DNA of 48,066 nucleotides from Marinisporobacter sp. (GTDB taxonomy: Bacteria; Bacillota; Clostridia; Peptostreptococcales; Thermotaleaceae): assembly GCA_025210525.1 (NCBI GenBank), contig JAOARP010000004.1, positions 1 through 48,066 of the forward strand. The letters are read 5' to 3'. The notes beneath the pieces were generated by a model, which saw nothing but the letters and a program-made list of their open reading frames with translations, was not told where the DNA came from and searched no databases. Position 1 is the first letter of the stretch, and each line of letters starts with the position of its first letter. The position numbers were made by a program, and so were the translations under genes. Below are positions 11,764-48,066 of the stretch, one piece after another.

Positions 11764-11826
11764 ATGAAATAATTTTTATAAGGGATAAAGGACGTTTTTA
11801 GGGTATAGGGATAAGGGAGATTATAC

Positions 11827-24401: not shown

Positions 24402-24428
24402 GACTTGTTTTTTAGCAAGTCTTTTTTT
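24402..24428 (+). terminator. Rho-independent terminator
   Basis: GACTTG (24402-24407) pairs with CAAGTC (24416-24421) around an 8-base loop and is followed by seven T. It begins directly after the regulator stop codon. Confidence 0.85.
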
Positions 24429-24584
24429 GTAGAAGAAGCTTAAAATATGTAAGATAGACAGATTTTATGAAAGCGTATACAATAAAAATTGTTAAAGAGA
24501 AGTAAAACAATAAATGATAAAAAATGAACAAGTAAAAAAAAACAGCATAGCTATGAAAATATATGAATTATAGAGGGTTTTTAA

Positions 24585-27500
24585 ATGAAAAGTATAAAAA
24601 AATTACAGAAAAATTCAATTATAGGGATTATTTTTGTTGTTGTGATTTGTATGATTTTTTTTATGGTGAATGGATTAATATTTTTGAACAATGATTTTAA
24701 AGAGAATAATGGAAAGAAAGTATTAAAAGGTGTTATGTATCTAGAAAAAAATGATCTGAAGGAGGATCATATACTTTTTTTAAATGGAGAATGGTCTTTT
24801 TTTCCGAATGTTTTCTTAGAACCAGAGGAAGTGAAAAATCATGAAAACAATGAGCAGTACATAGATTTTCCAAATTTGTGGGAAGGAAAAAAGTTTGGAG
24901 ATACGATCATGGAGGAAAAAGGTTATGGGACTTATCAAGTAAAGCTTATTAATAAAGGAAAACCAGAAAAAGTCATGTTTTATTTTACACCATCACCAGC
25001 AGAAGCCTATAAGGTATATATGAATGATGAACTTGTACTTAAGGTTGGAGAAGTTGGCAAAAATAAAGAAACGACAAAAGCTGAATATAAAACAGAAGCT
25101 GTTACATACGATTTTGATAAAGAACTTACTATTACTATACAGGTTGCTAGCTTCACGTATAATGGTGGAGGCTATTATAAACCTATTATATTTGGAAAAG
25201 CAGATACTATATTAAAGCTTAAAACATTTAATTTGGCGAAAGATGTATTCATATTAGGCGTTTTAACGATACTTTTTTTATACTTTGGTATGACTCGAAT
25301 AAAAAATAAGCATACAGGATATGTATTATCCTGCTTTGTTGCAACAGCTTTTTTGGGCATTTTGTATACTGTTTCAACGGGAGAAATGATTATTCGTATG
25401 TTATTCCCTCAATTGCCCTTTAGAGTATATTATATGATGTATTATATGATTTCCATTACAGGAGGAAGTTTATATATATTCTTATTAAGTGATTTATTTC
25501 CAGTAGAAAGCAATAGAAAAATAAAAGATTTAACCACTATAAAAGTAGTTATATTTATAGGAATTATATTATTTTTTGAAAACTATTTTATTGGAAAAGT
25601 GGCTGTTATTAAAGATGTACTTGTGATTTTAGAATTTCTTTATGGGATTTATGTATTATCAAAAGCAACTTATAATAAAAAAAGGGGAAGCATAACTATT
25701 TTGTTTGGAACAATATCCTTAATTGCAGCTGTAGTATATGATATATTATACCTTTATGCTGTCTTTGTTACTCCTTATGAACTGATTACACCCTTTGGAC
25801 TTGCTACCTTTATCTTATGCTTTGCAATCATTTTATCAAGAAGATATGAAAGCTCTTTTCAAGAAGTAGAAAATCTATCTAAAAGACTTATAGAAATGGA
25901 TAAAATAAAGGATCAATTTTTAGCGAATACGTCTCATGAGCTTAGAACACCCCTTAATAGTATGATTGCATTAACAAAATCTTTGCTAGAGGAATCAAGA
26001 ACATTTGATCTAAAGGAAAGGGAATCTTTAGATATGGTTATATCTAGTGGAAAAAGATTAAGAAACCTTGTAAATGATTTGTTAGATTATTCAAGTATGA
26101 AATATAGTCAAATCAAGCTGGTTAAAAGTCATTTTGATATAAAAAAGGCTATAGAAAATACCATAAAAGAATTTGAGCCTATTGCAAATAATAAAAATAT
26201 AAAATTAAGTAGTGAAATAGAAGAAGAGATAAAAAAGATTTATGGAGATAAATATAGATTTATACAGGTTTTGTATAACTTGATAGGAAATGCTATTAAG
26301 TTTACTCCTGAAAATGGGCATATACATATAAAAGTTTATAAAAAAGAGAATAAATTTTATATAGCTATAGAAGATACAGGGATTGGAATTAGTGAAGAAA
26401 AGCTAAAAAATATTTTCAATTCCTTTGAGCAGGCAAATGAAAAAATAGGAGAAAAGTATGGAGGGTTTGGACTGGGTTTAAGTATTTCCAAGGAAATTAT
26501 ATTAGCACATGAAGGGGAACTTGTAGTAGATAGTAGAGAGGGCGTAGGATCTATTTTTACTATTATTTTACCAATGAAAGAAGTAATTGTAGAGGATGAA
26601 GTTCAAGAACATGAGGAATATAATTTACCACAAATAAAAGAAGATTTACAAAAAAATACTACTATTGATATAAAAGGTGAATTAGAAGATACAATTGTTA
26701 TTATTGATGACTATTATTCAAATATATTTGCTGCTGCAAGTATATTAAAAACAGAGGGGTATAGTATAAAAGGATATGTAAATGCAGAAGAAGGAATGGA
26801 TGAAATTAATAATAATCCTAGGGTTGTATTAGCTATTATAGATTTAATGATGCCAGAAATTTCTGGCGAGGAAATTTGTAAACGTATCAGAGAAAAATTT
26901 GATCTATTGCAATTACCTATTTTGGTCCTAACAGCCAATATGCAAATGAGTGGATTAGTAAAAAGTTTTGAAAATGGAGCCAATGATTTTTTGCACAAAC
27001 CTTTTGAAACGGAAGAACTAAAGGCAAGGGTTCGTACTTTAGCACAGCTCAAAAAAGCAAAAACAACAGCAATAGAGAATGAATTAAGTATGCTGCAAGC
27101 CCAAATTAATCCTCATTTTTTATATAATGCTATGAATGCTATTGCAGCGTGTTGTTATGATAGCGGAGAAAAGGCTGCAGATATTATCATTGATTTAGCA
27201 GATTATTTAAGATATACCTTTGAATTTGATCATAAGATAAAAGAAATAACCCTTAGTAAAGAGCTAGAATTAGTCAAGGTATATTTAGCTATAGAAAAGA
27301 TAAGGTTTGAGGATCAATTAGAATATGAATTTCATATAGAAGATGAAGTATTTGTGACTATACCACCCTTTACATTACAAACTATCGTAGAAAATGCAGT
27401 AAGACATGGTATTCGAAAAAAGCCTAATGGCGGGAAAATAACCATAAAAGGATCTATAAAAAATAATTATTATAGCATTGAAATAAAAGATACAGGGATA

Positions 27501-27680
27501 GGCATGACAAAGGAGGATTTAGAATTAGTTTTAGCAGGGAAAAAGTCTACAGGAACTGGACTGGGCATTGCAAATGTAAGGAGAAGGCTTAAAAGTATTT
27601 ATGGAACAAATATAAAAATAGAAAGCAACTATGGACAAGGAACGAATGTAATCTTACAGTTAGGTTTAAATAAAATATAA
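24585..27680 (+). CDS. Dual-core hybrid histidine kinase: 7TMR-DISM, HisKA, receiver, LytS-type kinase
   Basis: A 1031-residue hybrid sensor. N-terminal TM (11-34), then a jelly-roll extracellular domain (about 45-205, LNGEWSFFP, GYGTYQVKL) as in 7TMR-DISM proteins, then seven helices (about 220-418). Cytoplasmic order: HisKA with H451 in NTSHELRTPLNS; ATPase 1 with NLIGNAIKFTP, DTGIGI and GGFGLGLSIS; receiver with D753 in IIDLMMPE and K805 in LHKPF; then a second, LytS/YehU-type kinase with H844 in INPHFLYNAMNAI, N box VENAVRHGI and GLGIANVRRR. Two complete kinase cores around one receiver in one chain is unusual. The receiver-SARP regulator gene starts 33 bases after the stop. ATG at 24585 follows AGAGGG. 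The ligand is unknown; jelly-roll domains often bind carbohydrates. Confidence 0.9.
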   Translation: MKSIKKLQKNSIIGIIFVVVICMIFFMVNGLIFLNNDFKENNGKKVLKGVMYLEKNDLKEDHILFLNGEWSFFPNVFLEPEEVKNHENNEQYIDFPNLWEGKKFGDTIMEEKGYGTYQVKLINKGKPEKVMFYFTPSPAEAYKVYMNDELVLKVGEVGKNKETTKAEYKTEAVTYDFDKELTITIQVASFTYNGGGYYKPIIFGKADTILKLKTFNLAKDVFILGVLTILFLYFGMTRIKNKHTGYVLSCFVATAFLGILYTVSTGEMIIRMLFPQLPFRVYYMMYYMISITGGSLYIFLLSDLFPVESNRKIKDLTTIKVVIFIGIILFFENYFIGKVAVIKDVLVILEFLYGIYVLSKATYNKKRGSITILFGTISLIAAVVYDILYLYAVFVTPYELITPFGLATFILCFAIILSRRYESSFQEVENLSKRLIEMDKIKDQFLANTSHELRTPLNSMIALTKSLLEESRTFDLKERESLDMVISSGKRLRNLVNDLLDYSSMKYSQIKLVKSHFDIKKAIENTIKEFEPIANNKNIKLSSEIEEEIKKIYGDKYRFIQVLYNLIGNAIKFTPENGHIHIKVYKKENKFYIAIEDTGIGISEEKLKNIFNSFEQANEKIGEKYGGFGLGLSISKEIILAHEGELVVDSREGVGSIFTIILPMKEVIVEDEVQEHEEYNLPQIKEDLQKNTTIDIKGELEDTIVIIDDYYSNIFAAASILKTEGYSIKGYVNAEEGMDEINNNPRVVLAIIDLMMPEISGEEICKRIREKFDLLQLPILVLTANMQMSGLVKSFENGANDFLHKPFETEELKARVRTLAQLKKAKTTAIENELSMLQAQINPHFLYNAMNAIAACCYDSGEKAADIIIDLADYLRYTFEFDHKIKEITLSKELELVKVYLAIEKIRFEDQLEYEFHIEDEVFVTIPPFTLQTIVENAVRHGIRKKPNGGKITIKGSIKNNYYSIEIKDTGIGMTKEDLELVLAGKKSTGTGLGIANVRRRLKSIYGTNIKIESNYGQGTNVILQLGLNKI

Positions 27681-27713
27681 AAATGATCATTCACCATAGA
27701 AGGGGGACACCTT

Positions 27714-28808
27714 ATGTTAAAAGCAGTATTATTTGATGATGAAAAGCTTGCTTTAAAAATGATGCAAATTCAATTAAACAAAGTTGAAAATGTAAAAATT
27801 ATAGGAGCATTTACAGTATATGATGAATTGATGAAGCATATAAACAAAGAACAAGCTGATATTGCTTTTTTAGATATCGAAACACCTTTTAAAAGTGGAC
27901 TTGAGATTGCACAGGAAATTCTTCATATAAGTCCGAATACGGAGATTGTATTTGTAACAGCTTATAAGGATTACGCCTTTGATGCTTACGAACTTGAAGC
28001 ACAGGACTATCTTTTAAAGCCTGTGAAAAAAGAACGACTAGAACGAGTAATTAAAAAAGTTGAGAGATTAAAGGAAAACAGCTTAAAGCACAATAAGGAT
28101 ACTTCTATAGAGCAAAATGATAAACTCTTTAAAATCAACATGATGAACAAATTTCAAGTAAAAGACCAACAGGGAAATATAATAAAATGGAGAACGAAGA
28201 AAACAGAAGAATTAATGGCTTTTTTAGTACATCATCATGATCATATAGTTACATCTGATAGGATCATCGAAGGATTATGGGAGGATAAAGAATTAGAAAA
28301 AGCAAAAAATATTTTATATACGACTATATATTATTTAAAAAAGATATTAGTGCCTAGGGGGATTTCTTTTATAGGAAACCAATATAGTATAAAAGAAATA
28401 GATTTTGATTCGGATTTTATTCAACTATCCAATTTGATGAAGCAGTTAGAAAACAATTCATCAGAAGATATATGGAAAAGTCATGAAATCATTATTTTTG
28501 AAAAGATCTATAATCTTTATATAGGAGGATATTTAGAAATAAATGCATATGAATGGGCATTGGTTAAAAAACTAGAATATGAAAGACGGTTTATTTCTTT
28601 AGCCAATCAAGGAATAAAATATTATAAAGCTCACAATAATTATGAAAAACAAATTGAATTATTAGAAAAATTATTAGAAATCAATGAATATGAAGAAAAA
28701 TATTATGAAGAATTATTATGTATTCATAAAAATATGAATAATAAAAAGAGATACGAAAAAATCAAGAAAAGATATGAAGAAACAATTAATCGGATAAAGA
28801 TAAAATAA
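27714..28808 (+). CDS. Response regulator with SARP-type DNA-binding and BTAD domains
   Basis: A 364-residue regulator and the likely partner of the hybrid kinase just upstream. The receiver (1-118) has the acidic pair FDDEK, phospho-acceptor D54 (FLDIETP), T in VFVTAYKD and K in YLLKPVKK. Residues about 135-230 form a SARP/OmpR-like winged helix (WRTKKTEELMAFLVHH...IIEGLWEDKELEKAKNIL), followed by a BTAD helical domain (about 235-360). SARP proteins bind short direct repeats of about 11-bp period next to the -10. Such boxes (TGTTGA) occur in the next two promoter regions, 28880-28924 and 38377-38421. ATG at 27714 follows AAGGGGG. A terminator follows the gene. Confidence 0.9.
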   Translation: MLKAVLFDDEKLALKMMQIQLNKVENVKIIGAFTVYDELMKHINKEQADIAFLDIETPFKSGLEIAQEILHISPNTEIVFVTAYKDYAFDAYELEAQDYLLKPVKKERLERVIKKVERLKENSLKHNKDTSIEQNDKLFKINMMNKFQVKDQQGNIIKWRTKKTEELMAFLVHHHDHIVTSDRIIEGLWEDKELEKAKNILYTTIYYLKKILVPRGISFIGNQYSIKEIDFDSDFIQLSNLMKQLENNSSEDIWKSHEIIIFEKIYNLYIGGYLEINAYEWALVKKLEYERRFISLANQGIKYYKAHNNYEKQIELLEKLLEINEYEEKYYEELLCIHKNMNNKKRYEKIKKRYEETINRIKIK

Positions 28809-28827
28809 AAAATAAATATTCCTAAGG

Positions 28828-28864
28828 AAAACAGTTAGATCAAAAAAGATTTAACTGTTTTTTT
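28828..28864 (+). terminator. Terminator T1, first copy of a recurrent cassette
   Basis: AAAACAGTTAGATC (28828-28841) pairs with 28848-28861 (one G-T pair) and is followed by more T. Closely related hairpins occur at 38322-38357 and 46615-46652, always ahead of a similar promoter region. Confidence 0.88.
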
Positions 28865-28879
28865 GTACAAATCAAAAAA

Positions 28880-28924
28880 TGTTGAAAATTGTTGAGATTT
28901 TGTTGAGGTAGTATTTGGTATTAT
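28880..28924 (+). promoter_or_regulatory. Promoter P1 with three TGTTGA boxes (predicted SARP site)
   Basis: TGTTGA at 28880-28885, 28890-28895 and 28901-28906 (intervals 10 and 11), then extended -10 TGGTATTAT (28916-28924). There is no good -35, as expected for an activator-dependent promoter. The same arrangement with identical spacing recurs at 38377-38421. It drives the pseudo-receiver gene and probably the giant surface protein after it. Confidence 0.7.
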
Positions 28925-28951
28925 AAGAAAAAATGAAAGAAGGAAATAAAA

Positions 28952-29341
28952 TTGAATACAGTTTTTATTTCAAAAGAACGTTTATTTGAAAAATATAGCT
29001 TTGATATAGTTTTTTGGATTGTAAAATATTCTGAAAAATTTTCGGGGATTTACAATTCCTATGAAAATTTTTTAAAAGAAATGGATGAGTTAGTACCGGA
29101 TTTATTTTATGTAGAGTTAAGTAGTAAGGGGGAGATGGATATAAACATGACTCAATTAATTCGTGAGCAATTTCCAAGGTCAGATATTGTTATATTGTCT
29201 GATGGGAAAAATTATGCCTATGAGGCCTTTGAAAGAGAGATTTTAGATTATTTGGTATACCCCATTCAAAAGCAAAGGTATGAAAAAACAATTGGTAAAT
29301 TGGCAAATAAGAATACAAGAATAAATATTTCTAAAGAATGA
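28952..29341 (+). CDS. Stand-alone degenerate receiver (pseudo-receiver) protein
   Basis: A 129-residue protein that aligns by eye with the receiver domain of the SARP regulator 27714-28808, e.g. SDIVILSDGKNYAYEAFE against TEIVFVTAYKDYAFDAYE, then DYLVYPIQKQR against DYLLKPVKKER. The phospho-acceptor position is Glu (E55, YVELSS), the conserved Lys is Tyr (Y103), Thr is Ser (S83), and the N-terminal acidic pair is missing. No output domain follows. It therefore cannot be phosphorylated normally and may mimic the phosphorylated state. The start is TTG at 28952 behind AGAAGGA, 28 bases after the -10 of P1. The binding partner is unknown; the SARP regulator or hybrid kinase is my inference. Confidence 0.72.
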   Translation: MNTVFISKERLFEKYSFDIVFWIVKYSEKFSGIYNSYENFLKEMDELVPDLFYVELSSKGEMDINMTQLIREQFPRSDIVILSDGKNYAYEAFEREILDYLVYPIQKQRYEKTIGKLANKNTRINISKE

Positions 29342-29440
29342 TAAAAAACAATTTTAAAATCTGATAGTGTCAAATTATTGGATCAAAATAATTAATAAAA
29401 TATAAATTTACAAACATTCCCCTAAAAAATATTTTTCCAA

Positions 29441-29510
29441 TAGACGATGAAGGAGCCACAGGGCTATGGAGTCTAAGATAAGAAACCATGTAAGCGTTGA
29501 TTGCTTGCAT
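29441..29510 (+). ncRNA. Candidate structured leader RNA of giant surface protein A
   Basis: Two hairpins lie in the 298-base gap before the giant gene. The first has an outer stem TAGAC/GTCTA (29441-29445, 29471-29475), asymmetric internal loops and an inner stem AGCC/GGCT (29454-29457, 29462-29465) with an ACAG loop. The second is an 8-bp stem ATGTAAGC/GCTTGCAT (29488-29495, 29503-29510). The GC content is higher than in the surroundings. I cannot assign a known riboswitch class; a few short motifs recall c-di-GMP-I RNAs, but the core is not there. Confidence 0.35.
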
Positions 29511-29639
29511 ACAAAATATATAAAAGTGTGAACTTTTTTTAAGGCGGTGATTATCTTGAAGTAGGTTAAAGAAGTAAGAATGGAAGTGCAAATATTTTAG
29601 AAATTTAAAGAAAATGGGAAAAGTGGGGGAATGACGAAC

Positions 29640-32600
29640 ATGAAAAGTAAAAACATTAGAAAAATCATTTCTATATTCATTGTTATCACAATGATATGGG
29701 GATATATACCTTTTATCCACCCAAATATCTTTAGTGCAGAAGGGGCTAGTGCTATGGCAGGGGCTGGTACAGAAGGGAATCCATATAGAATTAGCTCGAT
29801 TGAAAAGCTTTATGAAATGAGGGATGACAATTCTGGATGGTATTATATATTAATGCGAGACTTAGATTTTAATGATAATGCATCCTATGAAAATCCAAGT
29901 GATACATCCTATGGAGATATTAATGGGGATGGTAGTACAGAAGGCATTAAAAAAGAGCTTACAACAGGTAAAGGCTGGAGCAATGCTCTTTTTAAAGGGC
30001 ATTTAGATGGAAATTATCATGTCATTTATAATCTTTATTCTAATCGTGCAGGTGGAGTTGGATTATTTAAAAGTTTAGACCATGGAACTACTGTTAAAAA
30101 ATTTGGGATTGTTAATGCAAATCTTACAAAAGCAAGTGGGAATGGTGGAGTTTTAGCTTCAGAGATACATGGAACAACTATCCAAAAAGTAATTGCTACA
30201 GGAACTATTACTAGTAATGGAGCAAGAAATAATGGTGGTCTAATTGGTTGGGCAGTTGATGGAACAAGTACCATTACAGATTGCTATGTGAATGTGGGGA
30301 TTTCTGCCAATGATAATGAAGCTGGTGGGATTGTTGGTTTTCATACCAGTAATCTAACTATTTCTGATTCTATAGCATTAGGAGATATTACTGTTCCTAA
30401 TGGTGGTGGAGGAATCATTGGGATTGCTCCTAATAATTATCCAACAATAAATATTGAGAATAATATTGCTTTTATGAATAAGCTTTCAAATGTGACGGTA
30501 TCAGCACAGGTTAATAGAATTAGTGGTAATGGGGCAAGTCATAACTTAACCCTATCAAACAATTATGCTAATGCAAATATGACAGACCATACCAATGGAA
30601 CTATTATATCAAATGATGCCAATAGCTACGATGGAAAGAATATGACTTCAGCTGAATTGGTGGACAGTAATTTTTATTCAACCAATTTACCAACATGGGA
30701 TTTTAACAATACATGGAAATTAACAGATGAAGGTCCTAAACTTAGAGGATTTGAGCATAATGCTTTAGAACTTGATGGAGTAGATGATTATTTTCACGCA
30801 CCAACAACAGGATATAGTACTAGTAAAACATATACTGTAGAAATGTGGATAAAACCAACTAGTTTGAAAGAAGGGGTACATTTATGGGAAGGAATGAGTA
30901 CATCAGCGCCATCAATGGAAGGTTCTTCAAATAGACTAGTTTTTCTAACGAATAATTCAGATCCTATTAGTACAGGAATACTGTCTATTGGAGAATGGCA
31001 CCACATAGCGGCTACTTATGACAAAACGGCTAAAACAAAAACCTTATATGTTGATGGAAAAATGGTTAATCAATTAAATGGAATAGATGTTTCAGATACT
31101 TTTGGAAATAAGATATATATTGGGGATAGAGTAGGTTGGAGTAGACAATTTCCTATGGATATTGATGAAGTACGTATATGGAATATTGCAAGAACAGGGC
31201 AGCAGATTAGAGACAATATGTATAAAGAGTTAGCAGGTGATGAAGGAGGGCTTGTTGCATATTATGATTTTGATGAATCAAAGGGAAATATACTAGAAGA
31301 TAAAACAACGAATCATAATGATGGAACAATAGTAAATGGAACATGGGTAAATTCAGGAGCCATGTGCCCTAGGGTCATTTCCTTAACAGATATAAATACT
31401 ACAGGATTAACTGCAAATTGGGTAGAAGGTAAGAGTACAATGACCTATACTATACAGATTGATGATGATCCTAATTTTACAAGTCCAATCAATATTCAAG
31501 CTGGTGCAGATTCCAATGCAGATACTACTATTTATAGTAACAAAATAACAGGACAAAATTTCCCTCAGAATACAAAATATTATTATCGTATGTATGGAGA
31601 GGATGAAGGTTGGATCACCCCATACTCAGCAGTAGAGGAGTTTATGATAGAACCAGGAATGGCAATTGAGTTTGATGGAGTAGATGATTATATAAGTGCA
31701 TCAGATTCTGCTACTTTAGATTTAGATAGTGCTATGACCGTTGAATTTTGGGTAGAACCTTTAGTTAATGGATATCATACAATTTTATGTAAATCTGTAT
31801 CAGATGGTGATGAAAATTATAGAATAGTCATCAATCCAGAGCTTAATTATATCTATTGGGATTATGGTACTGGTGACCAATATGTAGGAACGAAGAGTGC
31901 TGATTTTAGTGCTAAAGAGTGGAATCATATTTCAGTATCTGTAACAAAAGGGAATAAGGGTAAAATATATTTGAATGGTAAAGAAGTAGTTAATTATTAT
32001 CATTCACAGGTAGCACCTGATCCATTGATGGTAAATGACGCTGATTTAATAATAGGAAAAGTATTCAATGACAGCAGTTATTCCAACGTGAGATTGGATG
32101 AATTAAAAATATGGAATACAGAGAGAACACCTGAACAAATTAAAGATAATATGTACAAAGGGTTAGAAGGAACTGAAACAGGTTTAGTAGCCTATTATAA
32201 TTTTAATGAAAAAAGTGGTACAACTGTACCGGATATAACAGGTAATAGCAATAAAGGAACAGTATCAGGAGCAACATGGAGAACTTCAGAAGCTATGGGT
32301 CCTTGTATAACAGCAATAACTAATGTAACTAATACATCAGCAACCTTTGCATGGGACAAAGTAGAGGGTGCAACAGGGTATATTATAGAGATCGCTAGTG
32401 ATGCATCTTTTAATAACATATCAAAAACAGAAAATGTAAATGATGGTACAACTACGAGCCATTCGATATCAGGTCTTACGTTAGGTGGTAATACAGAATG
32501 TTTTATTCGTATGAGAGCAAAAGTGAATGATTGGCAAAGTCCAAATTCACCTACTAAATCATTCTTTATTAAACCAGGGAAGGCACTTAAGTTTGATGGG

Positions 32601-38306: not shown

Positions 38307-38321
38307 TCTCTCGAATATTAG

Positions 38322-38357
38322 AAAACAGTTAAATCAAATACGATTTAACTGTTTTTT
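38322..38357 (+). terminator. Terminator T2, second copy of the recurrent cassette
   Basis: A perfect 14-bp stem (38322-38335 with 38342-38355), 6-base loop and T-run, starting 15 bases after the stop of surface protein A. It closely resembles T1 at 28828-28864. Confidence 0.92.
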
Positions 38358-38376
38358 GTGTGAATAAATCAAAAAA

Positions 38377-38421
38377 TGTTGAAAATTGTTGAGATTTTGT
38401 TGAGGTATAATTTGGTATTAT
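38377..38421 (+). promoter_or_regulatory. Promoter P2 with three TGTTGA boxes (predicted SARP site)
   Basis: TGTTGA at 38377-38382, 38387-38392 and 38398-38403 (intervals 10 and 11), then extended -10 TGGTATTAT (38413-38421). Spacing from the last box to the -10 is the same as in P1. A TATAAT overlaps at 38406-38411 but is not kept in P1, so the downstream -10 is preferred. It should drive surface protein B. Confidence 0.72.
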
Positions 38422-38454
38422 GAAAAAAATGAAAAAATCAGAGGAGGATGAAGT

Positions 38455-41400
38455 GTGAAGACAAATATGAAAAAGTACATGTCATGGATGCTTATATTAT
38501 CAATTATATTTACCATGATACCATTGAACACTGTAAAAGCTGAAACAACAGGGAATTGGCAAGATGATGGTGTTCCAGCTACTAGCTTTGTAGGTGGATC
38601 AGGAACAGAAGAATCACCTTATGAGATTGCAAATGCAAGTCAATTAGCATATTTAGCAAAGAAGGTCAATGAAGGGGATACTAGTTATAATGCAGCTTAT
38701 TATAAATTGACGGATAATATTGATCTAGGAACGCATTTTTGGACACCCATTGGGAATTTTAATGAAAGTAATGAAGAAAAAGTTTTTAAAGGTAAATTTG
38801 ATGGGAATGGAAAAGTTATCAGTAATGTGAAGATAGGTACAGAATCAAATCCTGATAATACATATGATTATGTAGGCTTATTTGGACGCATTTATACTAA
38901 TGCAAGTATAAAAAATGTTGGAGTGAGTGTGAAGATATTTTCATCTAAAGAACATGCATTAGTAGGTGGTCTTGTAGGAGATAATTGGCAAGCAACTATT
39001 AGTAACAGCTATGTAACGGGAAATGTGAAGGGTGGAAATAGTGATGCATATATAGGAGGGGTTACAGGGAGAAACACTGAAAGTACTATAAGTGATAGTT
39101 ATTTTAGAGGTAATGTGATCGGCGGAGATACTGCAATTATAGGAGGTCTTATAGGGACATCTTTGGATACTATGATAAGTAATAGTTATGCTATATGTGA
39201 TGTTACTGGTGGTGACTCATGGATAGGAGGATTAGCAGGGGAGTTTTCATCTAATGATAGTGATGGTAATAATGAGGGTGATTATTATATTGAAAATTGC
39301 TATGCAACAGGAGATATGACAGGTGGAGTAGATGCAATATTGGGAGGTTTTATAGGGCTTTGTAGTGGGAAAGATATCGTCAAAAATTGTTATTATGATA
39401 GTAGTTCAAAGCAGATTGTAAATGGTTCAGAACGTTCACTAGATGATAAAAAAGCACTAGGTGAGTCTGACGATGGATCTGATGATGGAGCAAGCAAAAT
39501 GACATCAGAAAATATGAAAGCTGGAGCAGGAACAGATGGAGCATTAGTTGATTTATTGAATGACAATAAAGGGGATCATTCAGCATGGAAGCAAGAAAAT
39601 GGTGTAAATGATGATTATCCTACTTTTGGAGTTTCTACAGCTGTACATAAATTGAATGTGAGTATTACTGCAGGTGGCGTGACTGGATCTGTAAAGGCAA
39701 CGATTACTGGAAGTGCAACATCAAAATTTGTAGTGAATATTACAGATGCTTCTGTAGTTACACCAAATGAAGGAGATGTAGCACCCACAACTGGAGATAA
39801 TCTTATAGATAGTTATATTAGTGAAGCAAATATTACAAATGGTGTAGAAGCAGATAAATACATACAAATATATGATGTAGATGTAAATGGAGAAGTAGTT
39901 AAGTTTTACCAAAAGAAAATAACAGCTGAAATCATAAAGCAAGATGAGGTGATTTCTGATGATGGCTTTGCAGGAGGATCAGGAACAGAAGAATCACCTT
40001 ATGAGATTGCAACGGTAAGCCAATTAGAATATTTAGCAGAGAAGGTAAATGAAGGGGATACGAATTATAATGCAGCTTATTATAAATTAACAGATAATAT
40101 TGATCTAGGTGAACGCTTGTGGACACCTATTGGTAATGAAGAAAAAGTTTTTAAGGGTAAATTTGATGGAAATGGAAAAGTCATCAGTAATGTGAATATA
40201 GGTACAGAATCAAATCCTGATGATACATATGAAATGTTAGGTTTATTTGGACATATCAAAGGTACGAATGAGGATCATGCAATCATAAAAAATGTGGGAG
40301 TGAGTGTAAAGCTATTTACATCTAAAGAACGTGCAGTAGTAGGAGGTATTGTAGGGCAAGGTTGGCATGCAACTATCGATAATAGTTATGTAACCGGTGA
40401 TATAAACGGTGGTAGTTTAGCAGGAGGACTTGCAGGTGGGTGTGTATTAAGTGATATTAGTAATAGTTATTTTAAAGGGAATGTAACCATTAAAACTGAT
40501 GATGGCTCAATAGGAGGACTTGTAGGGGATAGTGGAGATACTACTATCAGTAATAGCTATGCCATAGGGAATGTGACTAGCAGTGATGGTTCTCCAAATA
40601 CAGGAGGTTTAGTAGGGGCGTTACTTGGCAAACCTATTGAAAACAGTTATTTTTCAGGTAATATGAAAGGAGTAGGTGGAGAAAATTCAAGAGTAGGAGG
40701 AATAGTAGGGTATACTTTAACTAGTGATAATGTGAAAAATTGCTATTATAATATAGATTCAAAACAGATAGTAGATGATGTAGAACTTTCAATAGATGAT
40801 AAGAAAGCCGTAGGAACGTTTCCAGATGAAACTGCAGATAAAGTGACAAGTGAAATAACATCTGAAAAAATGAAAGCTATAGCAGGGACAAATGGAGCAT
40901 TAGTTGATTTATTGAATCAAAATAAAGGAGATCATTTATCGTGGAAGCAAGCAATAGGCGTGAATGATGATTATCCTACCTTTGCAGTTTCTAAACCTGT
41001 AGCAGTGTTAACAGTAAATGTTACTTCTGGTACAGCAATAGGGTCTACAAAAGTAAATATTAGTGAAGGTGCAACATCAAAATTTGTAGTGAATATTACA
41101 GATGCTTCTGTATCTATACCAAATGAAGGAGATTCAGTACCTACAACTGGAGACCATCTTATAGATGGATACATAAATGAAGCAGATATTAAAAAAGGTG
41201 TAGTAAAAGATAAATATTTACAAATATATGATGTAGATGCAGAGGGAAAAGTAGTTAAGTTTTATCAAAAACAATTAACGGCTGAAACTATAAATACTAC
41301 CAATTGGCAAGATGATGGAGCTGTTGCTACTAGTTTTGCAGGTGGAGCAGGAACAGAAAATAGCCCTTATGAGATTGCAAATGCTTCTCAATTAGCATAT

Positions 41401-44400
41401 TTAGCAAAGAAGGTAAATGAAGGGGATACTGATTATAACGGAGCTCATTACAAATTAACAAATAATATTGATGTAGGAGAAAGTTTTTGGACACCTATTG
41501 GTGATATGGGAAATCCTTTTAAAGGTAAATTTGATGGGGATGGAAAAAAGATTAGTAATATTTATATAGGTACAGAATCAAATCCTAACGATACACATGG
41601 TTTAGCTGGTTTATTTGGATATATTATAAATGGAAGCATAAAAAATGTTGGGGTTAGTGTACGTATATTCTTAGATAAAGAAGGCGCTACTATGGTAGGT
41701 GGTCTTAGTGGGGCTGCTGAGAATACAACCATTAGTAATAGTTATGTAACAGGTGTAGTAATAAATAGAGATGAAGGACATGTAGGAGGTTTTGTAGGCT
41801 CAGGGTTTGAGACGAGTATTAGTAATAGCTATGTTAGTTGTGATGTGACTGGCAACAAGGGAATGATAGGAGGATTTTTAGGGTTTTATATGTCTAGTAA
41901 TGCTGATTTATATAATATCCAAAATAGTTATACAACAGGTCATGTGACAGGTGGAGAAAATGCAGTAGTAGGAGCATTTATAGGGAATTCTATTAAAAGT
42001 GATAGCATAAAAAAATGTTACTATAATAGTGATTCTAAACAAGAAGTAAATGGTGTAGAACGTTTACTAGAGGATAAAAAAGGAATAGGTCAATCTGATG
42101 GTGATCCAATAATTAAAACAACATCAGAAAAGATGAAAGCTTCAAAAGGAACAGAAGGAGCTTTAGTAGATATATTGAATACAAATAAAGGCTCAGATTA
42201 TCCAACTTGGTATACATGGAATCAAGATAGTGGAAAAAATGATGCTTATCCAACGATGGCAGCTTCTGTACCTGCATCTACATTGAATGTAAGTATTGCT
42301 ACTGGTAGCGTTAGTGGGTCTACAAAGGCAACTATTAGTGATAGTGCAACATCAAAATTTGTAGTTAATATTACAGATGCTTCTGTAGCCACACCAAATG
42401 TAGGAGACATAGCACCTACAACAGGAGATAATCTTATAGATAATTATGTAAGTGAAGCAGATATTACAAATGGAGTAGAAGCAGATAAATATTTACAAAT
42501 ATATGATGTAGATGAAAACGGAGAAGTAGTTAAGTTCTATGAGAAAAAACTTGCAAATACAGATATAAATAAGGATATAGAAAATGCAAAGACAGCATTA
42601 GATGAAACAGACTTCACTTATGGAGCTGGAGATGACAAAGACAATGTTACGAAGAACTTCACCCTTCCACTTAATGGAGAAAATGAAACAAATATCACAT
42701 GGGAAGAAAAAACAGATATAGGGAATAATGTATCAATAGATAATGGAACAGGAGTAGTAACAGTAACAAGACCAGCCAATGGAAATGGAGATGCTCATGT
42801 AACATTAACAGCCACTATTTCAAAAGGTAGTGAGAGGGATACAAAAGAGTTAAGTATAATAGTAAAAGAAGAACCAAAAGTTATTGAAACAACAGTAGGA
42901 GATAAAACTCCTATATCAATAAGTTTTGATATGTTAGCAAATAATTATAAAAAAAGAGTATTCCTAGTATTACCACAAGGAATCGAGGTAGATAGTGACC
43001 AAAATATATCTATAATAAATAAGGATAACAATACCATTCATGTTGAGGATTATACTATTACTGACAATAGTATAAATGGAAAAGCATGTAAGCAAATATA
43101 TCAAATAATAAACAGTGATAATTCTGTTACAGATTATACAGTGACGCTACCAATAAAAGTTACAAATACTTTTGATACGAGTACGCTAGTGAATGACATA
43201 GTATCATTAGAATATATAATAGTAGAAAGTGCATCGTCGAATGTTCGTGTGGGAGAAGAAATCGGAGAAATAAAGTTAAAAGTAAATGTTGCTAATAATG
43301 ATGTACCAAATGCAAAGGAAGCATTAGATGAAACAGACTTTACCTATGGAGCTGGAGATGACAAAGACAATGTTACGAAAAACTTTACACTTCCACTTAG
43401 TGGAGAAAATGAAACAACTATCACATGGGAAGAAAAAACAGATACAGGGAATAATGTGTCAATAGATCATGAAACAGGAGTAGTAACAGTAACAAGACCA
43501 GACAATGGAAATGGAGATGCTCATGTAACATTAACAGCCACTATTTCAAAAGGTAGTGAGAGTGATACAAAAGAGTTAAGTATAACAGTAAAGGAAACCC
43601 CATTAACAGATGCAGGAGCAGTAGCATTAGACAAAGGAGCATTAAACATAACCTATGGTGGAAGCGATGCTATAAACAATGTTACAGAGGATATGACACT
43701 CCCAACAAGTGGAAGTAATGGAACAACAATAAGCTGGAGTTCAGGAGATACAAGTGCTGTAACTAATGATGGAACAGTAATAAGACCCACATATGGAAAT
43801 GGAGATGTCAATGTAAAGCTAACAGCTACGATTTCAAAAGGGCAAGCAAGTGATACAAAAGAATTTAATGTAACAGTAAAAGAAGGGCAGAACTATGCAA
43901 TTGAAAAAATAGATAACCAAACTATGAGCGAAAAAATTGTAGGCTATACATCAGGAAGCCAAGAAACAAAGAGCATAACGATAACAAAAACAGGAGCAGG
44001 AAATTTAGTAAATCTATCAGTGGCGTTAAGTGGAACAAATAGTAATGATTTTGAGATTACCCAACCAGGAGTAACAACATTAGATGAGAGTACAACATCT
44101 ACTAGTTTTACAATAAAAGCCAAGGATGGTTTAGCAGAAGGAACTTATATAGCAACTTTAACCCTATCTGCAAATAATATGACAGATGTAACATTTACCG
44201 TAACTCAAGTAGTTGCAGCAAAACCATTATCAACTGATTGTGATGTATCATCTATTACTAAACCAAGTGGAGCAACAAAAAATGGAAGCAATATTACAGC
44301 CAAAGTAGACAATGTAGCTACAGAGATTACATTAGATATGTCTGTAAGTAACAATGCAACATGGAAACTATATAGTGATGTGAATTGTACTAATGAAATA

Positions 44401-46521
44401 ACAAATAAAACTATGAATCTAAATGTAGGAGATAACACAGCTTATGTAAAAGTTATAGCAGAGAATGGTACAACCACTAAAATATATAACATAACTATAA
44501 CAAGAGGAGTAGCACCAGATTCATCAGCACCTTATATAAAAGGAACAAATCCTACAAACAATGCAGTAGATGTAGATATAGCTAAAACAATAGTAGTAAT
44601 CTTTAGTGAAGATATATTAGCAGGTTCAAACCTAGACAGGATCACATTGAAAAATGGAAATACGGTAGTTGACTATGTATACGGTATTGATGATGATAAA
44701 TTGACAATAAATCCAAAATTAGATTTAGATAATGGAACTCTTTACACATTGACTATACCAGAGCAAACAGTAACAGATACAGTGTATAACTCATTAGAAG
44801 ACCAGTATATACTAAATTTTACAACAAAGAAAATATTATCAAATAATGCAGACTTAGCAGGAATTAATTTAGGCAATATTACGTTAATACCAGCATTTAA
44901 TCCTAACCAAAAAGAATATACTGCAAGTGTAGGATATAGCATAGGTAGTATAACTATCACACCAACAAAAGCAGAGGATAATACAAAAATAAGCGTAAAT
45001 GGAAAAGAAGTAACTAGTGGACAAGCAAGTGAGGCTATCAACTTAAATGTAGGAAGCAACACTATAACAATAGTAGTAACAGCAGAAGATGAAACAACAA
45101 AAATATACACAATAAAAGTAACAAGAGAAGAAAAAAAGGATGATGGAGGATCATCTTCAGGAGATAACAATGATGGAGGATCATCTTCTTCAGGAGGGTC
45201 ACCATCAAGCACAACCCCTTCAGAATCAGAATCAAAACAAGGATCAAAAGTTATAGTAAATGGAGAAGAAGAAACAGCAGGAAAAGAAACAATAAAAGAA
45301 GAAAATGGACAAAAAAATGTAGAACTTGTTGTTGATTCAGAAATACTTAACAAAAAGATAGAAGAAGTGGATGTAAAAGAAGAAGCAAACAATGTAGTAG
45401 AAGTTGCTGTAGAAGCTAAACAAGCAGATAAAGTTGAAACAGTTCTTACAGGAGATATTGTCAAAAAAATGGATGAAAAAGAATTCAAATTATCCATAAA
45501 AACAGATGAAATAGACTATATTATCCCAGCTAAAGAAGTAGGAATAGATCAAGTATCAGAAATACTAGGAGTAAAAAAAGACTCACTAAAAGAAATAAAA
45601 GTAGAAGTACAAATAGAAAAACTAGATGCTAAAATAGTAAAAGAAATAGAAGAAAAAGCGAAAGCACAAGACTATGAAGTAGTCTTCCCACCCGTTGAAT
45701 TTAAAGTTGTAGCAAAAACAACTAATAATGCAGGGGAAGTAAAATCAACAGAAATATCAAAATTCAAAAACTATGTAGAAAGAGTCATGGAAATACCAGA
45801 AGGAGTAGACCCATCAAAAATTACAACAGGAATCGTATATAATGCAGATGGAACCTTCTCCCATATACCAACAGAAGTATTCAAAAAAGGTGATAAATGG
45901 TATGCAAAGCTAAATTCATTAACAAATTCAAGTTATTCAGTAATATGGAACCCAATAACTGTAGAATCAGTAGAAAACCACTGGTCAAAAGAATATGTCA
46001 ATGATTTAGCATCAAGATTGGTTATAAAAAATCCAGAAAACTTTAAGCCAGATGAATGTATTACAAGGGGAGAATTTGCAGAATATATCACAAAGGCTAT
46101 AGGGGTTTACAGAACAAAAGTAGCAGAAAAAGGTCAATTTACAGATGTAGAAGTAAAAGATGAACTTGCAGATGCAATCACCACAGCAGTAGAGTATGGC
46201 ATCATCAAGGGGTACCCAGATGGAACATTTAGATCAGATGGAAAAATAACTAGAGAAGAAGCTATGACCATGTATGCAAAAGCAATGGATATAGTGAAGC
46301 TAAGTGAAAAAGATAACAGCCGAATAGAAAACTACAAAGACAAAAACCAAGTATCACCATGGGCATATGACTTTGTGAAGAAGACAATCAGTGCAAATGT
46401 CTTCAATGGAAGAACAAAAGAAACAATAGCCCCACAAGGAACTTTCACTTATGCAGAAGCATCAGCAGCCATACAAAATCTATTGATTGAAGCAAAATTG
46501 ATCAATAAGAGAAAAAAATAA
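38455..46521 (+). CDS. Giant SLH-anchored surface protein B with GLUG modules and Ig-like domains
   Basis: 2688 residues. A signal peptide (about 1-29) precedes three large modules (about 43-495, 503-945, 960-1370). Each has an opening GGSGTEESPYEIA-type segment, a GLUG beta-helix (GGLVG...SNSY pattern) and a closing domain with ATSKFVVNITDASV. Then come atrophied-Ig-like domains near 1375, 1618 and 1717 (FTYGAGDDKDNVTKNFTLPL), an uncharacterised domain near 1811-1920, cadherin-like domains near 1924 and 2132, Big_5 near 2025, a Gly/Ser/Asp linker (2225-2262), the same pre-anchor domain as protein A and three SLH motifs from about 2505. GTG at 38455 lies 7 bases after AGGAGG. Likely adhesin or S-layer-associated protein. 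Controlled from P2. Confidence 0.9.
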   Translation: MKTNMKKYMSWMLILSIIFTMIPLNTVKAETTGNWQDDGVPATSFVGGSGTEESPYEIANASQLAYLAKKVNEGDTSYNAAYYKLTDNIDLGTHFWTPIGNFNESNEEKVFKGKFDGNGKVISNVKIGTESNPDNTYDYVGLFGRIYTNASIKNVGVSVKIFSSKEHALVGGLVGDNWQATISNSYVTGNVKGGNSDAYIGGVTGRNTESTISDSYFRGNVIGGDTAIIGGLIGTSLDTMISNSYAICDVTGGDSWIGGLAGEFSSNDSDGNNEGDYYIENCYATGDMTGGVDAILGGFIGLCSGKDIVKNCYYDSSSKQIVNGSERSLDDKKALGESDDGSDDGASKMTSENMKAGAGTDGALVDLLNDNKGDHSAWKQENGVNDDYPTFGVSTAVHKLNVSITAGGVTGSVKATITGSATSKFVVNITDASVVTPNEGDVAPTTGDNLIDSYISEANITNGVEADKYIQIYDVDVNGEVVKFYQKKITAEIIKQDEVISDDGFAGGSGTEESPYEIATVSQLEYLAEKVNEGDTNYNAAYYKLTDNIDLGERLWTPIGNEEKVFKGKFDGNGKVISNVNIGTESNPDDTYEMLGLFGHIKGTNEDHAIIKNVGVSVKLFTSKERAVVGGIVGQGWHATIDNSYVTGDINGGSLAGGLAGGCVLSDISNSYFKGNVTIKTDDGSIGGLVGDSGDTTISNSYAIGNVTSSDGSPNTGGLVGALLGKPIENSYFSGNMKGVGGENSRVGGIVGYTLTSDNVKNCYYNIDSKQIVDDVELSIDDKKAVGTFPDETADKVTSEITSEKMKAIAGTNGALVDLLNQNKGDHLSWKQAIGVNDDYPTFAVSKPVAVLTVNVTSGTAIGSTKVNISEGATSKFVVNITDASVSIPNEGDSVPTTGDHLIDGYINEADIKKGVVKDKYLQIYDVDAEGKVVKFYQKQLTAETINTTNWQDDGAVATSFAGGAGTENSPYEIANASQLAYLAKKVNEGDTDYNGAHYKLTNNIDVGESFWTPIGDMGNPFKGKFDGDGKKISNIYIGTESNPNDTHGLAGLFGYIINGSIKNVGVSVRIFLDKEGATMVGGLSGAAENTTISNSYVTGVVINRDEGHVGGFVGSGFETSISNSYVSCDVTGNKGMIGGFLGFYMSSNADLYNIQNSYTTGHVTGGENAVVGAFIGNSIKSDSIKKCYYNSDSKQEVNGVERLLEDKKGIGQSDGDPIIKTTSEKMKASKGTEGALVDILNTNKGSDYPTWYTWNQDSGKNDAYPTMAASVPASTLNVSIATGSVSGSTKATISDSATSKFVVNITDASVATPNVGDIAPTTGDNLIDNYVSEADITNGVEADKYLQIYDVDENGEVVKFYEKKLANTDINKDIENAKTALDETDFTYGAGDDKDNVTKNFTLPLNGENETNITWEEKTDIGNNVSIDNGTGVVTVTRPANGNGDAHVTLTATISKGSERDTKELSIIVKEEPKVIETTVGDKTPISISFDMLANNYKKRVFLVLPQGIEVDSDQNISIINKDNNTIHVEDYTITDNSINGKACKQIYQIINSDNSVTDYTVTLPIKVTNTFDTSTLVNDIVSLEYIIVESASSNVRVGEEIGEIKLKVNVANNDVPNAKEALDETDFTYGAGDDKDNVTKNFTLPLSGENETTITWEEKTDTGNNVSIDHETGVVTVTRPDNGNGDAHVTLTATISKGSESDTKELSITVKETPLTDAGAVALDKGALNITYGGSDAINNVTEDMTLPTSGSNGTTISWSSGDTSAVTNDGTVIRPTYGNGDVNVKLTATISKGQASDTKEFNVTVKEGQNYAIEKIDNQTMSEKIVGYTSGSQETKSITITKTGAGNLVNLSVALSGTNSNDFEITQPGVTTLDESTTSTSFTIKAKDGLAEGTYIATLTLSANNMTDVTFTVTQVVAAKPLSTDCDVSSITKPSGATKNGSNITAKVDNVATEITLDMSVSNNATWKLYSDVNCTNEITNKTMNLNVGDNTAYVKVIAENGTTTKIYNITITRGVAPDSSAPYIKGTNPTNNAVDVDIAKTIVVIFSEDILAGSNLDRITLKNGNTVVDYVYGIDDDKLTINPKLDLDNGTLYTLTIPEQTVTDTVYNSLEDQYILNFTTKKILSNNADLAGINLGNITLIPAFNPNQKEYTASVGYSIGSITITPTKAEDNTKISVNGKEVTSGQASEAINLNVGSNTITIVVTAEDETTKIYTIKVTREEKKDDGGSSSGDNNDGGSSSSGGSPSSTTPSESESKQGSKVIVNGEEETAGKETIKEENGQKNVELVVDSEILNKKIEEVDVKEEANNVVEVAVEAKQADKVETVLTGDIVKKMDEKEFKLSIKTDEIDYIIPAKEVGIDQVSEILGVKKDSLKEIKVEVQIEKLDAKIVKEIEEKAKAQDYEVVFPPVEFKVVAKTTNNAGEVKSTEISKFKNYVERVMEIPEGVDPSKITTGIVYNADGTFSHIPTEVFKKGDKWYAKLNSLTNSSYSVIWNPITVESVENHWSKEYVNDLASRLVIKNPENFKPDECITRGEFAEYITKAIGVYRTKVAEKGQFTDVEVKDELADAITTAVEYGIIKGYPDGTFRSDGKITREEAMTMYAKAMDIVKLSEKDNSRIENYKDKNQVSPWAYDFVKKTISANVFNGRTKETIAPQGTFTYAEASAAIQNLLIEAKLINKRKK
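38583..42560 (+). repeat. Three large tandem modules in surface protein B
   Basis: Modules begin near 38583, 39963 and 41332 (intervals about 1380 and 1369 bases). Each opens with a GCAGG(A/T)GGA(T)CAGGAACAGA-like segment and ends with a segment encoding FVVNITDASV and IYDVD. Ends are better conserved than the GLUG centre, as expected for old duplications with local drift or domain shuffling. Confidence 0.8.
44838..46521 (+). repeat. C-terminal block shared with surface protein A (copy 2)
   Basis: Direct repeat of 36655-38306, encoding the last cadherin-like domain, linker, pre-anchor domain and SLH motifs. The linker differs most: protein B has an extra GGSSSGDN-type insert. The SLH-coding end is nearly identical to that of protein A. 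Confidence 0.85.
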
Positions 46522-46614
46522 GCTATTAATAATTGAAATGAAATTACTTTATTAATTCTAATGGATCAAATGTTGATGGTGAATTTGTTAGTAATAACTT
46601 AAAGATATTTAAAG

Positions 46615-46652
46615 AAAACAGTTGAATCAAATGAAATTCGACTGTTTTTTTT
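46615..46652 (+). terminator. Terminator T3, third copy of the recurrent cassette
   Basis: AAAACAGTTGAAT (46615-46627) pairs with 46636-46648 (one G-T pair) and a T-run follows. Sequence and shape match T1 and T2. It begins about 95 bases after protein B. Confidence 0.88.
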
Positions 46653-46703
46653 AGGAAAATAGGTCGAAAAATTAAGAAAAATGAAACTTATTTGGGAAAA
46701 ATT

Positions 46704-46712
46704 TGGTATAAT
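46704..46712 (+). promoter_or_regulatory. Promoter P3, degenerate third copy without TGTTGA boxes
   Basis: Extended -10 TGGTATAAT (46704-46712) preceded by ATT, as in P1 and P2, about 75 bases before the next start codon. The upstream region resembles P1 and P2 in outline, but none of the three TGTTGA boxes is kept at the expected offsets. Confidence 0.5.
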
Positions 46713-46786
46713 GAAGGAAAATGAAATAGAGAACTATTACTTCAAAAGAGTTTTTATGAGTGTTTATTTTATAAAGGGAGGTAGTG

Positions 46787-48066
46787 ATGGTGAAAAAATC
46801 TAGTAAATGTTGTATAGCATTAGTGTTAATTGTATGTATGTTATTAGGAATATCTGTGAGTGAGGGGAATCATGTATATGCAGCAATGGAAGGAAAAATA
46901 TACTATTCTCAAGGAGATCCAAGTTATGATGTGAAGATGGCAAATTCAACGGATGGATCAGGAGCAACGCTTGTTTATAAGAGCCCAGCAGGAACTCCAG
47001 AGGCAGTGGCAGTTGATCTAAATGGAGGATATATTTATTATGCGGATAGACATCCTTCAAATCTTTCAGAGTCTAAAATATACAGAGCGAATTTTGATGG
47101 CTCAGGAGCGATAACTCTTATTGCTGGAGTGAAAGCCAACAGTATAGCTATTGATAGTATACATGGAAAAATATACTATTCTCAAGGAGATCCAAATTAC
47201 AATGTAGTGATGGCAAATTTATCGGATGGATCAGGAGCAACGCCTGTTTATACAAGTCCAGCAGGAACTCCGGAGGCAGTGGCAGTTGATCCAATTGGAG
47301 GGCATATTTATTATGCGGATAGACATCCTTCAAATCTTTCAGAGTCTAAAATATACAGAGCGAATCTTGACGGCTCAGAAGCGACAACTTTTATTGCTGG
47401 AGTCAAAGTCAACAGTATAGCTATTGATAGTATACATGGGAAAATATACTATGTAGATAAAAACACTTATAGTATAAAGAGGGCAAATTTGTCGGATGGA
47501 TCAGGAGCAACGCCTGTTTATACGAGTCCAGCAGGAACTCCAGAGGCAGTGGCAGTTGATCCAAATGAAGGATATATTTATTATACTGATAGACATCCTT
47601 CAAATCTTTCAGAGTCTAAAATATGCAGAGAGAATCTTGATGGCTCAGGAGCGATAACTCTTATTACTGGAGTTAAAGCCAATAGCATAGCTATTCCTTT
47701 TCAAATAGTAGTCCAAGCAGCCCCAGAAGCAAGCAGTGTAAGCATCAGTGGAACGGCTCAAGTAGGAGAAATACTGACAGGAAACTATAATTACAATGAT
47801 GTAAATGGAGATACAGAAGGAGCAAGTACATTTAAGTGGTATCGTTCAGATGATGTAAGTGGAACAAATAAGACAGAAATAAGTGGAGCAACAAGTAAGA
47901 CCTATGAACTAAAAAATACAGAATTAGGAAAATATATAAGCTTTGAAGTAACACCAGTAGCGAGTAGTGGAACAAGTCCAGGAAGTGCAGTAGAAAGTAG
48001 GGTTACAGGAAAAGTCGTAGCAGCAGAAGCAGCACCCGTAGCAAGTAGTGTAAGCAACAGAGGAAC
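46787..48066 (+). CDS. Secreted YWTD-like beta-propeller and Ig-like repeat protein, 3' end cut by window
   Basis: An open frame of at least 426 codons that runs off the window. A signal peptide spans about residues 1-33 (MVKKSSKCCIALVL... ending VYAA). Then three repeats of 91 residues follow, each with GKIYY, NxxDGSGAT, AGTPEAVAVDP, YIYYADRHPSNLSESKI and VKxNSIAI segments. These resemble the strands of LDL-receptor-type six-bladed propellers (YWTD repeats, here IYYAD). An Ig-like domain follows (from about residue 310: VSISGTAQVGEILTGNYNYNDVNG and GKYISFEVTPVAS), and a further copy begins at the edge. GGGAGG lies at 46776-46781, so ATG 46787 or GTG 46790 are both possible starts. An SLH anchor might lie beyond the window. 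Confidence 0.85.
   Translation, partial: MVKKSSKCCIALVLIVCMLLGISVSEGNHVYAAMEGKIYYSQGDPSYDVKMANSTDGSGATLVYKSPAGTPEAVAVDLNGGYIYYADRHPSNLSESKIYRANFDGSGAITLIAGVKANSIAIDSIHGKIYYSQGDPNYNVVMANLSDGSGATPVYTSPAGTPEAVAVDPIGGHIYYADRHPSNLSESKIYRANLDGSEATTFIAGVKVNSIAIDSIHGKIYYVDKNTYSIKRANLSDGSGATPVYTSPAGTPEAVAVDPNEGYIYYTDRHPSNLSESKICRENLDGSGAITLITGVKANSIAIPFQIVVQAAPEASSVSISGTAQVGEILTGNYNYNDVNGDTEGASTFKWYRSDDVSGTNKTEISGATSKTYELKNTELGKYISFEVTPVASSGTSPGSAVESRVTGKVVAAEAAPVASSVSNRG
46885..47700 (+). repeat. Three tandem 273-bp repeats in the propeller gene
   Basis: The segment TACTATTCTC starts at 46901 and 47174, and the matching TACTATG at 47447, both steps being exactly 273 bases (91 codons). Units 1 and 2 are nearly identical; unit 3 diverges only in its first 30 bases (TATGTAGATAAA in place of TATTCTCAAGGA) and at scattered sites. 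Recent duplication or gene conversion is likely. Confidence 0.85.

Follow-up and report, generated by a model that had tools for sequence, protein, structure and literature searches.

How a bacterium sets the make-up of a cell surface built from giant proteins is the question raised by a 48,066-nucleotide stretch of Marinisporobacter sp. DNA (the window; contig C9, JAOARP010000004.1, one of 66 contigs that make up a 4.69-Mb genome). Anaerobic Gram-positive bacteria often have giant SLH and repeat proteins but, to our knowledge, little is known of how these are controlled. In the window, genes that all lie on one strand encode, in order, a 1031-residue hybrid sensor kinase, a 364-residue response regulator with a BTAD-like C-terminal half of the SARP type, a 129-residue stand-alone receiver, two giant SLH proteins (2891 and 2688 residues) and a third secreted protein; 33 bases separate kinase and regulator. 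An earlier note, made from the sequence alone, read these genes as a self-contained, sensor-controlled switch for cell-surface composition with a built-in modulator, in a combination not known from any described system. Its gene order, coordinates and spacing agree with our open reading frame (ORF) calls and Pfam scan. We propose that the locus is probably a two-component switch for giant cell-surface proteins, including feedback by the stand-alone receiver, which is degenerate (the pseudo-receiver).

Large secreted proteins often lie beside receiver-BTAD regulators

The gene-neighbourhood comparison across relatives, suggested in the earlier note as a check, started from a profile of the regulator's effector half. 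With this profile, 140 of 297 order-level genomes contain relatives at E ≤ 1e-8, among them BTAD proteins without a receiver; at E ≤ 1e-18, 58 of 299 phylum-level genomes do. The first set comprised 40 regions with 41 of the 42 best order-level matches ranking after that of the window itself; the match omitted is G279:C1:3224090. The 39 receiver-BTAD regulators counted in it exclude L069, which has a FIST domain for a receiver, and L070 and L075, whose regulator ORF failed the ORF rule; L085 contributes two. As a control, we took 40 regions around other response regulators of related genomes, mostly LytTR-sized and some YesN-sized, and dropped one (L123) in which the receiver ORF has only 126 residues, leaving 39. 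Both sets were treated alike, with simple ORF calls, purpose-built domain hidden Markov models and a crude hydrophobicity rule for signal peptides, by which secretion was also called in the window.

Large secreted neighbours are enriched: a secreted protein of at least 600 residues is encoded by one of the next two same-strand genes for 22/39 receiver-BTAD regulators versus 1/39 control regulators (Fisher, p = 5.9e-8). An SLH protein is found among the next three genes for 11 and 1 of them, respectively. In the sole positive control, L118, a 237-residue gene precedes a 3018-residue SLH protein, and its receiver groups with that of a BTAD regulator (98/96); L118 may thus be a shortened member of the regulator family rather than a true control.

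A later set comprised 40 loci, 20 of them hand-picked from lower ranks (not all in order) and 20 from the phylum. The latter are 20 of the 21 best matches outside the window's genome; G939, with a frame of 1126 residues, was left out. A large secreted protein accompanies 8 of the 23 receiver-BTAD regulators of this set and none of its 17 BTAD proteins without a receiver. Figures given below for 63 regulators cover all receiver-BTAD regulators examined; a scan of genome contigs with the window's regulator gave four loci, of which only L025 was viewed and none was used. In 52 of the 63, a LytS-type kinase lies immediately upstream; the earlier note had pointed out that cognate kinases and regulators are usually adjacent. 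Its impression that the combination is unique was not supported, as the same arrangement recurs in other families and, if the kinship labels are followed, also beyond its class within the phylum.

Promoter repeats resemble SARP sites

Direct repeats are present in two promoters of the window, as had been noted before. The arrangement TGTTGA-N4-TGTTGA-N5-TGTTGA occurs at the two putative operators listed in Table 1 and nowhere else in the genome when spacers of 3–5 and 3–6 are allowed (reversed control, 0). The terminator-promoter modules before the 129- and 2688-residue genes are near-identical and a decayed form stands before the third gene, which points to duplication of the promoter together with a surface gene.

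In other loci, the promoters after the regulator show paired direct repeats that are spaced by 11 bp and immediately precede the −10 box; their letters vary from lineage to lineage (TTGTTGAGA, TTTTGGGAG, TTTTGGTGA, TTGTAAAGA, TTGTTTATT and TTTGTGAGA). We scored two 9-base copies at 11 bp with a −10 box in a set range and obtained p values from dinucleotide shuffles. Promoters were tested where a downstream gene was present and the gap was at least 60 bases, that is, at 31/39 regulators of the first set, 25/39 controls and 16/23 of the later set. A p value of ≤0.01 was reached by 16/31 regulator promoters, compared with 0/25 at control regulators and 5/103 other promoters of the same loci. Among loci fetched after the test had been designed, the figures are 7/16 and 7/108 (other promoters). 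The −10 box lies 7–13 bp, mostly 9–11 bp, past the last base of the second 9-base copy. A previous design, which demanded three copies and ignored the −10 box, was abandoned. SARP sites are described as direct heptamers with 4-bp spacers, and the AfsR site as lying 8 bp before the −10 box (PMC7040171). Judged by sequence only, the sites found here have the SARP form of direct repeats with an 11-bp period just upstream of −10.

A search of the genome with TGTTNAG-N4-TGTTNAG-N(7–13)-TANNNT yields six matches (reversed control, 0), two of them in the window. Four of the six lead into secreted proteins of at least 1300 residues, and two of these are on other contigs: the site at C10:25045 lies before the gene for a secreted protein of 3634 residues or more with DUF7507 and SdrD_B repeats, and that at C24:116462 precedes one of 1346 residues. 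The locus is therefore not self-contained. The neighbourhood, promoter-repeat and genome-wide operator tests support a control link that would run from the sensor through the receiver-BTAD regulator to surface-protein promoters with SARP-type repeats. This link is the supported part of the earlier note's surface switch; self-containment and uniqueness are not supported.

Behind the other two sites, short ORFs can be made out by eye: one of about 56 residues at L220 (C23, ~4098–4330) and two of about 43 and 59 residues at L211 (C10, ~11,400–12,008, minus strand). They could possibly encode small regulated proteins.

Kinase and regulator

The domain order of the kinase is 7TMR-DISM, HisKA-HATPase, receiver and LytS-type His_kinase-HATPase; a hybrid-type kinase is found beside 30 of the 63 regulators. 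The regulator scores 63.6 bits for Response_reg and 29.1 bits for Trans_reg_C (cut-off, 26.2). Pfam BTAD is matched at E ≤ 0.01 by 28 of 37 aligned regulators, an alignment that leaves out L091 and L092. When compared with solved structures, the effector-half profile matches EmbR (2fez, E = 0.0046) and, weakly, AfsR (8hvr, E = 0.056); OmpR-type winged helices are also among the matches. Receiver residues D9, D54 and K102 are invariant in the alignment, and over all 63 regulators D54 is retained in 62 and K102 in 60. By sequence, this is a two-component pair, in which a kinase with HisKA/His_kinase and HATPase domains adjoins a regulator with an intact receiver. An AlphaFold single-sequence model of the regulator was discarded (mean pLDDT, 48.7).

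Some related loci differ in their signalling parts. At L067 (10681–11574), a receiver-GGDEF protein is encoded between the hybrid kinase and the receiver-BTAD regulator, which suggests a cyclic di-GMP branch of the same switch. The regulators of L078 and L082 are adjoined by LytS-type kinases that carry a Reg_prop beta-propeller and a Y_Y_Y sensor; these domains were scanned for L078 alone, and the L082 kinase was assigned by its equal length. The regulator of L069 (8326–10341) has the order FIST-FIST_C-winged helix-BTAD and no receiver. A TGTTGAG-N4-TGTTGAG pair at L069 precedes the gene for a 1597-residue secreted protein, followed by that for a 468-residue SLH protein. The effector half, the repeats and the surface-protein output may stay together while the sensing part is exchanged.

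The pseudo-receiver belongs to a conserved family

A pseudo-receiver is defined as a receiver without one or more of the five residues DD, D, T/S and K (PMC12548384). The 129-residue protein falls under this definition: besides the two substitutions given in Table 1, its acidic pair is not aligned, Ser is retained, and its Response_reg score of 17.2 bits lies under the Pfam cut-off of 30.2. This bears out the stand-alone degenerate receiver of the earlier note. A Pfam search at E ≤ 1 found no DNA-binding domain in it, and the protein is thus not a fusion of the CmrR/CmrT kind discussed below.

Relatives were sought beside the regulators and with a profile across 391 class-level genomes, where the profile gave three new stand-alone matches at 105–115 bits; the next best reached 86 bits. 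Two of the 15 stand-alone receivers examined, L090 and L201, retain the phospho-Asp, and the tree joins L201 to the receiver of the regulator at its own locus. These counts omit L160, which is a duplicate, and L065, L094 and L123, which are unrelated. In the remaining 13, this residue is replaced by Arg (10), Lys (1), Pro (1) or, in the window, Glu (1), and the conserved Lys is lost from every one. All 13 form one side of a branch that separates them from the receivers of BTAD and LytTR regulators (98/91). That tree was pruned of BT_L170, PS_L090, BT_L091, BT_L092 and the kinase receivers, with LytTR rows thinned to 10; it supersedes a first tree, in which the window's pseudo-receiver was joined to a regulator row on a long branch (83/70). 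The clade is under purifying selection, with ratios of nonsynonymous to synonymous rates (dN/dS) of 0.08–0.34 in four pairs, three of which have dS > 1. Conserved parts are an FIRLG stretch and the block YALxAFExGAxGYLLxP, a region that we take to be α4-β5-α5 of receivers, the usual dimer face. Arg in place of Asp, together with loss of the Lys on β5, suggests a permanent salt bridge where the phosphorylation pocket used to be.

Within four genes of 11 of the 13 there is a receiver-BTAD regulator, and for 9 the next gene downstream encodes a secreted or SLH protein with 1100 residues or more. In six loci (the window, L061, L062, L064, L191 and L194), the pseudo-receiver gene is the first behind a promoter with repeats at p ≤ 0.01 and is therefore part of the predicted output. 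At L162 the promoter repeats are visible by eye, and L093, L196 and L200 give p values of 0.09, 0.015 and 0.85. These data support a conserved pseudo-receiver family tied to receiver-BTAD loci. Because the pseudo-receiver often sits in the output operon, its position suggests a feedback role, and the built-in modulator of the earlier note is plausible. An Arg-type pseudo-receiver is also present at a contig end (L161:9718–10218), with neither a regulator nor a giant protein beside it on the fragment.

Surface proteins and layout of the locus

The features of the locus are collected in Table 1. Both giant SLH proteins are as previously described, with three SLH stretches each in Pfam. The third is a secreted repeat protein, as noted, but its description needs correction. 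Its Ig-like repeats, at the end of C9, recur in an open frame that starts contig C23 (C23:1–3933, L220) and terminates in SLH domains, like the window's two giants. Most likely, then, the third protein is an SLH giant as well, its gene probably divided between two contigs where the repeats broke the assembly, and we infer that C9 and C23 are neighbouring contigs.

A 289-base leader (29341–29631), with possible hairpins by eye, separates the pseudo-receiver from the 2891-residue gene. A riboswitch was considered for it and rejected, as positions 24400–29700 gave a single chance Rfam match (E ≤ 10), inside the kinase gene. The genome has no second long copy of the leader; other matches span 17–37 bases (best E, 0.0041). 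A consensus terminator scan, which requires at least three G-C pairs, reported none at the hairpin before the first operator.

Table 1. Features of the locus in window coordinates
Feature	Position	Strand	Basis
Hybrid sensor kinase, 1031 residues; 7TMR-DISM_7TM, HisKA, two HATPase_c stretches, Response_reg, His_kinase	24585..27680	+	Pfam
Response regulator, 364 residues; receiver, winged helix, BTAD-like C-terminal half (SARP-type effector)	27714..28808	+	Pfam, profile
Terminator-like hairpin with T tail; near-identical copy before second operator	28830..28866	+	Read from sequence
Putative operator; TGTTGA in three direct copies, 11-bp period between the last two	28880..28906	+	Repeat scan, promoter test
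−10 box TATTAT, 11 bp past second 9-base copy	28919..28924	+	Promoter test
Stand-alone pseudo-receiver, 129 residues; phospho-Asp to Glu, conserved Lys to Tyr	28952..29341	+	Pfam, alignment
SLH surface protein, 2891 residues; Laminin_G_3, Cadherin-like, Big_5, SLH	29631..38306	+	Pfam
Second putative operator copy, followed by −10 box at 38416–38421	38377..38403	+	Repeat scan
SLH surface protein, 2688 residues; Glug, aBig_2, SbsC C-terminal, Cadherin-like, Big_5, SLH	38455..46521	+	Pfam
Decayed terminator-promoter module; repeats unclear, TATAAT retained	46600..46737	+	Sequence alignment
Third secreted repeat protein, start only, open at window end	46784..48066	+	ORF

Proposed mechanism and alternative readings

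In the mechanism that we propose, the seven-transmembrane (7TM) hybrid kinase would sense an envelope signal, leading to phosphorylation of the regulator. The regulator would then bind the direct repeats (~TTTGTTGAG, 11-bp period, ending ~10 bp before −10) in SARP fashion and activate the promoters at which they lie. Predicted targets are the operon of the pseudo-receiver and the 2891-residue SLH protein, and the 2688-residue SLH protein expressed from the duplicated promoter; the window's regulator or its paralogues in the genome may also serve the giant secreted proteins on other contigs. Lacking the residues for normal phosphorylation, the pseudo-receiver would be made from a regulated promoter and would most likely pair with the regulator's receiver, or else dock on the kinase, through its retained α4-β5-α5 face. 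Such pairing could feed the level of output back on the switch, with either sign. A wider reading, possible but in our estimate short of probable, is that the Asp-substituted stand-alone receivers (mostly Arg; few Lys, Glu or Pro) are old, dedicated feedback subunits of SARP-type two-component systems, co-transcribed with the giants from the regulated promoter and pairing with the regulator's receiver; how much of the output operon is made would then determine the cell's surface coat.

Several observations weigh against the proposed switch. The repeat test was designed after the promoter sequences had been read, and the loci fetched later therefore carry weight; p ≤ 0.01 was missed by 15/31 promoters of the first set and 9/16 of the later one. 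The earlier triple-repeat test was weak at p ≤ 0.05 (5/31 versus 2/25 and 7/73). Nothing longer than short ORFs follows the operator-type sites at C10:25974 and C23:4098. The window's regulator itself falls short of a Pfam BTAD match. The further receiver-BTAD regulators of the genome and the weak covariation of operator and regulator, both described below, count against the switch as well. A non-hybrid kinase, unlike that of the window, accompanies 7 of the 11 degenerate receivers near a regulator.

Most of the doubt concerns the pseudo-receiver. It might not be a modulator here at all, and instead serve another partner (surface-protein secretion or another kinase) or be a drifting remnant, while the repeats and the regulator are real. 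The window's pseudo-receiver has a long branch in the tree and Glu in place of the prevailing Arg, that of L161 has no adjoining regulator on its contig fragment, and most BTAD loci have no pseudo-receiver, a stand-alone receiver following 6/39 regulators of the first set and 5/23 of the later one. We nevertheless regard this alternative as unlikely, though a serious one: the 13 diverged pseudo-receivers form one clade, their low dN/dS argues against a remnant, and most lie near a receiver-BTAD regulator and directly before a large secreted or SLH protein.

A regulator that controls other genes, with the surface-promoter repeats belonging to a different DNA-binding protein, is a considerably less probable explanation. 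The genome holds at least two further receiver-BTAD regulators (C10 and C66), so the pairing of site and regulator is not fixed. The covariation of the two is also weak (Mantel test of operator versus regulator similarity, r = 0.26, p = 0.004), and the upstream flank correlates with regulator similarity as well (r = 0.18, p = 0.004). On the other hand, many loci have the repeats in the promoter that comes first after the regulator, which is not so beside control regulators, and the FIST-BTAD regulator of L069, which shares the effector half only, also has a TGTTGAG pair. That the co-location is incidental, SLH genes being common in this genome (67 SLH domain matches), is very improbable in view of the neighbourhood counts and the shared promoter design.

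The two-component switch with pseudo-receiver feedback is the reading that we prefer. An operator that can be read and that marks the promoters of giant proteins would make surface regulons predictable directly from genomes. Receivers in which the phosphorylation site has become a basic residue, long kept beside one kind of regulator, offer a compact test case for pseudo-receiver function.

Comparison with known systems

LytS/7TMR-DISM kinases partner LytTR or AraC-type (YesN) regulators. The system described here shares with them a His_kinase/HATPase kinase, a 7TM sensor and an adjoining regulator, but its output domain is a winged helix with a BTAD-like half, and the giant secreted neighbours are rare at the control regulators.

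Like the SARP activators AfsR, EmbR, ActII-ORF4 and PapR2, the regulator combines a winged helix with a C-terminal half that is BTAD-like, and the 11-bp direct repeats lie just upstream of −10. Unlike them, it has an N-terminal receiver and a presumably cognate histidine kinase, and its predicted targets are surface proteins instead of antibiotic clusters. The −10 box is counted here from the second 9-base copy, whereas the published 8-bp distance for SARP/AfsR is counted from the heptamer (PMC7040171). Among the matches listed in the open-licence PMC literature, no title or abstract opening describes surface proteins under the control of a receiver-BTAD regulator.

BldM and WhiI of Streptomyces have atypical receivers that work by forming heterodimers, as told in PMC12548384. 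There, both partners contribute to the DNA site and neither is a stand-alone receiver, unlike the case here. The nearest described case that we found is CmrRST of Clostridioides difficile, in which a canonical regulator and a pseudoreceiver protein form heterodimers in pull-downs and surface phenotypes are seen (same source). Both systems have a canonical regulator with a pseudo-receiver and a link to the surface, predicted in the present case. According to the same text, CmrT is a full OmpR-family regulator, whereas the pseudo-receiver of the window stands alone, in the output operon behind the operator.

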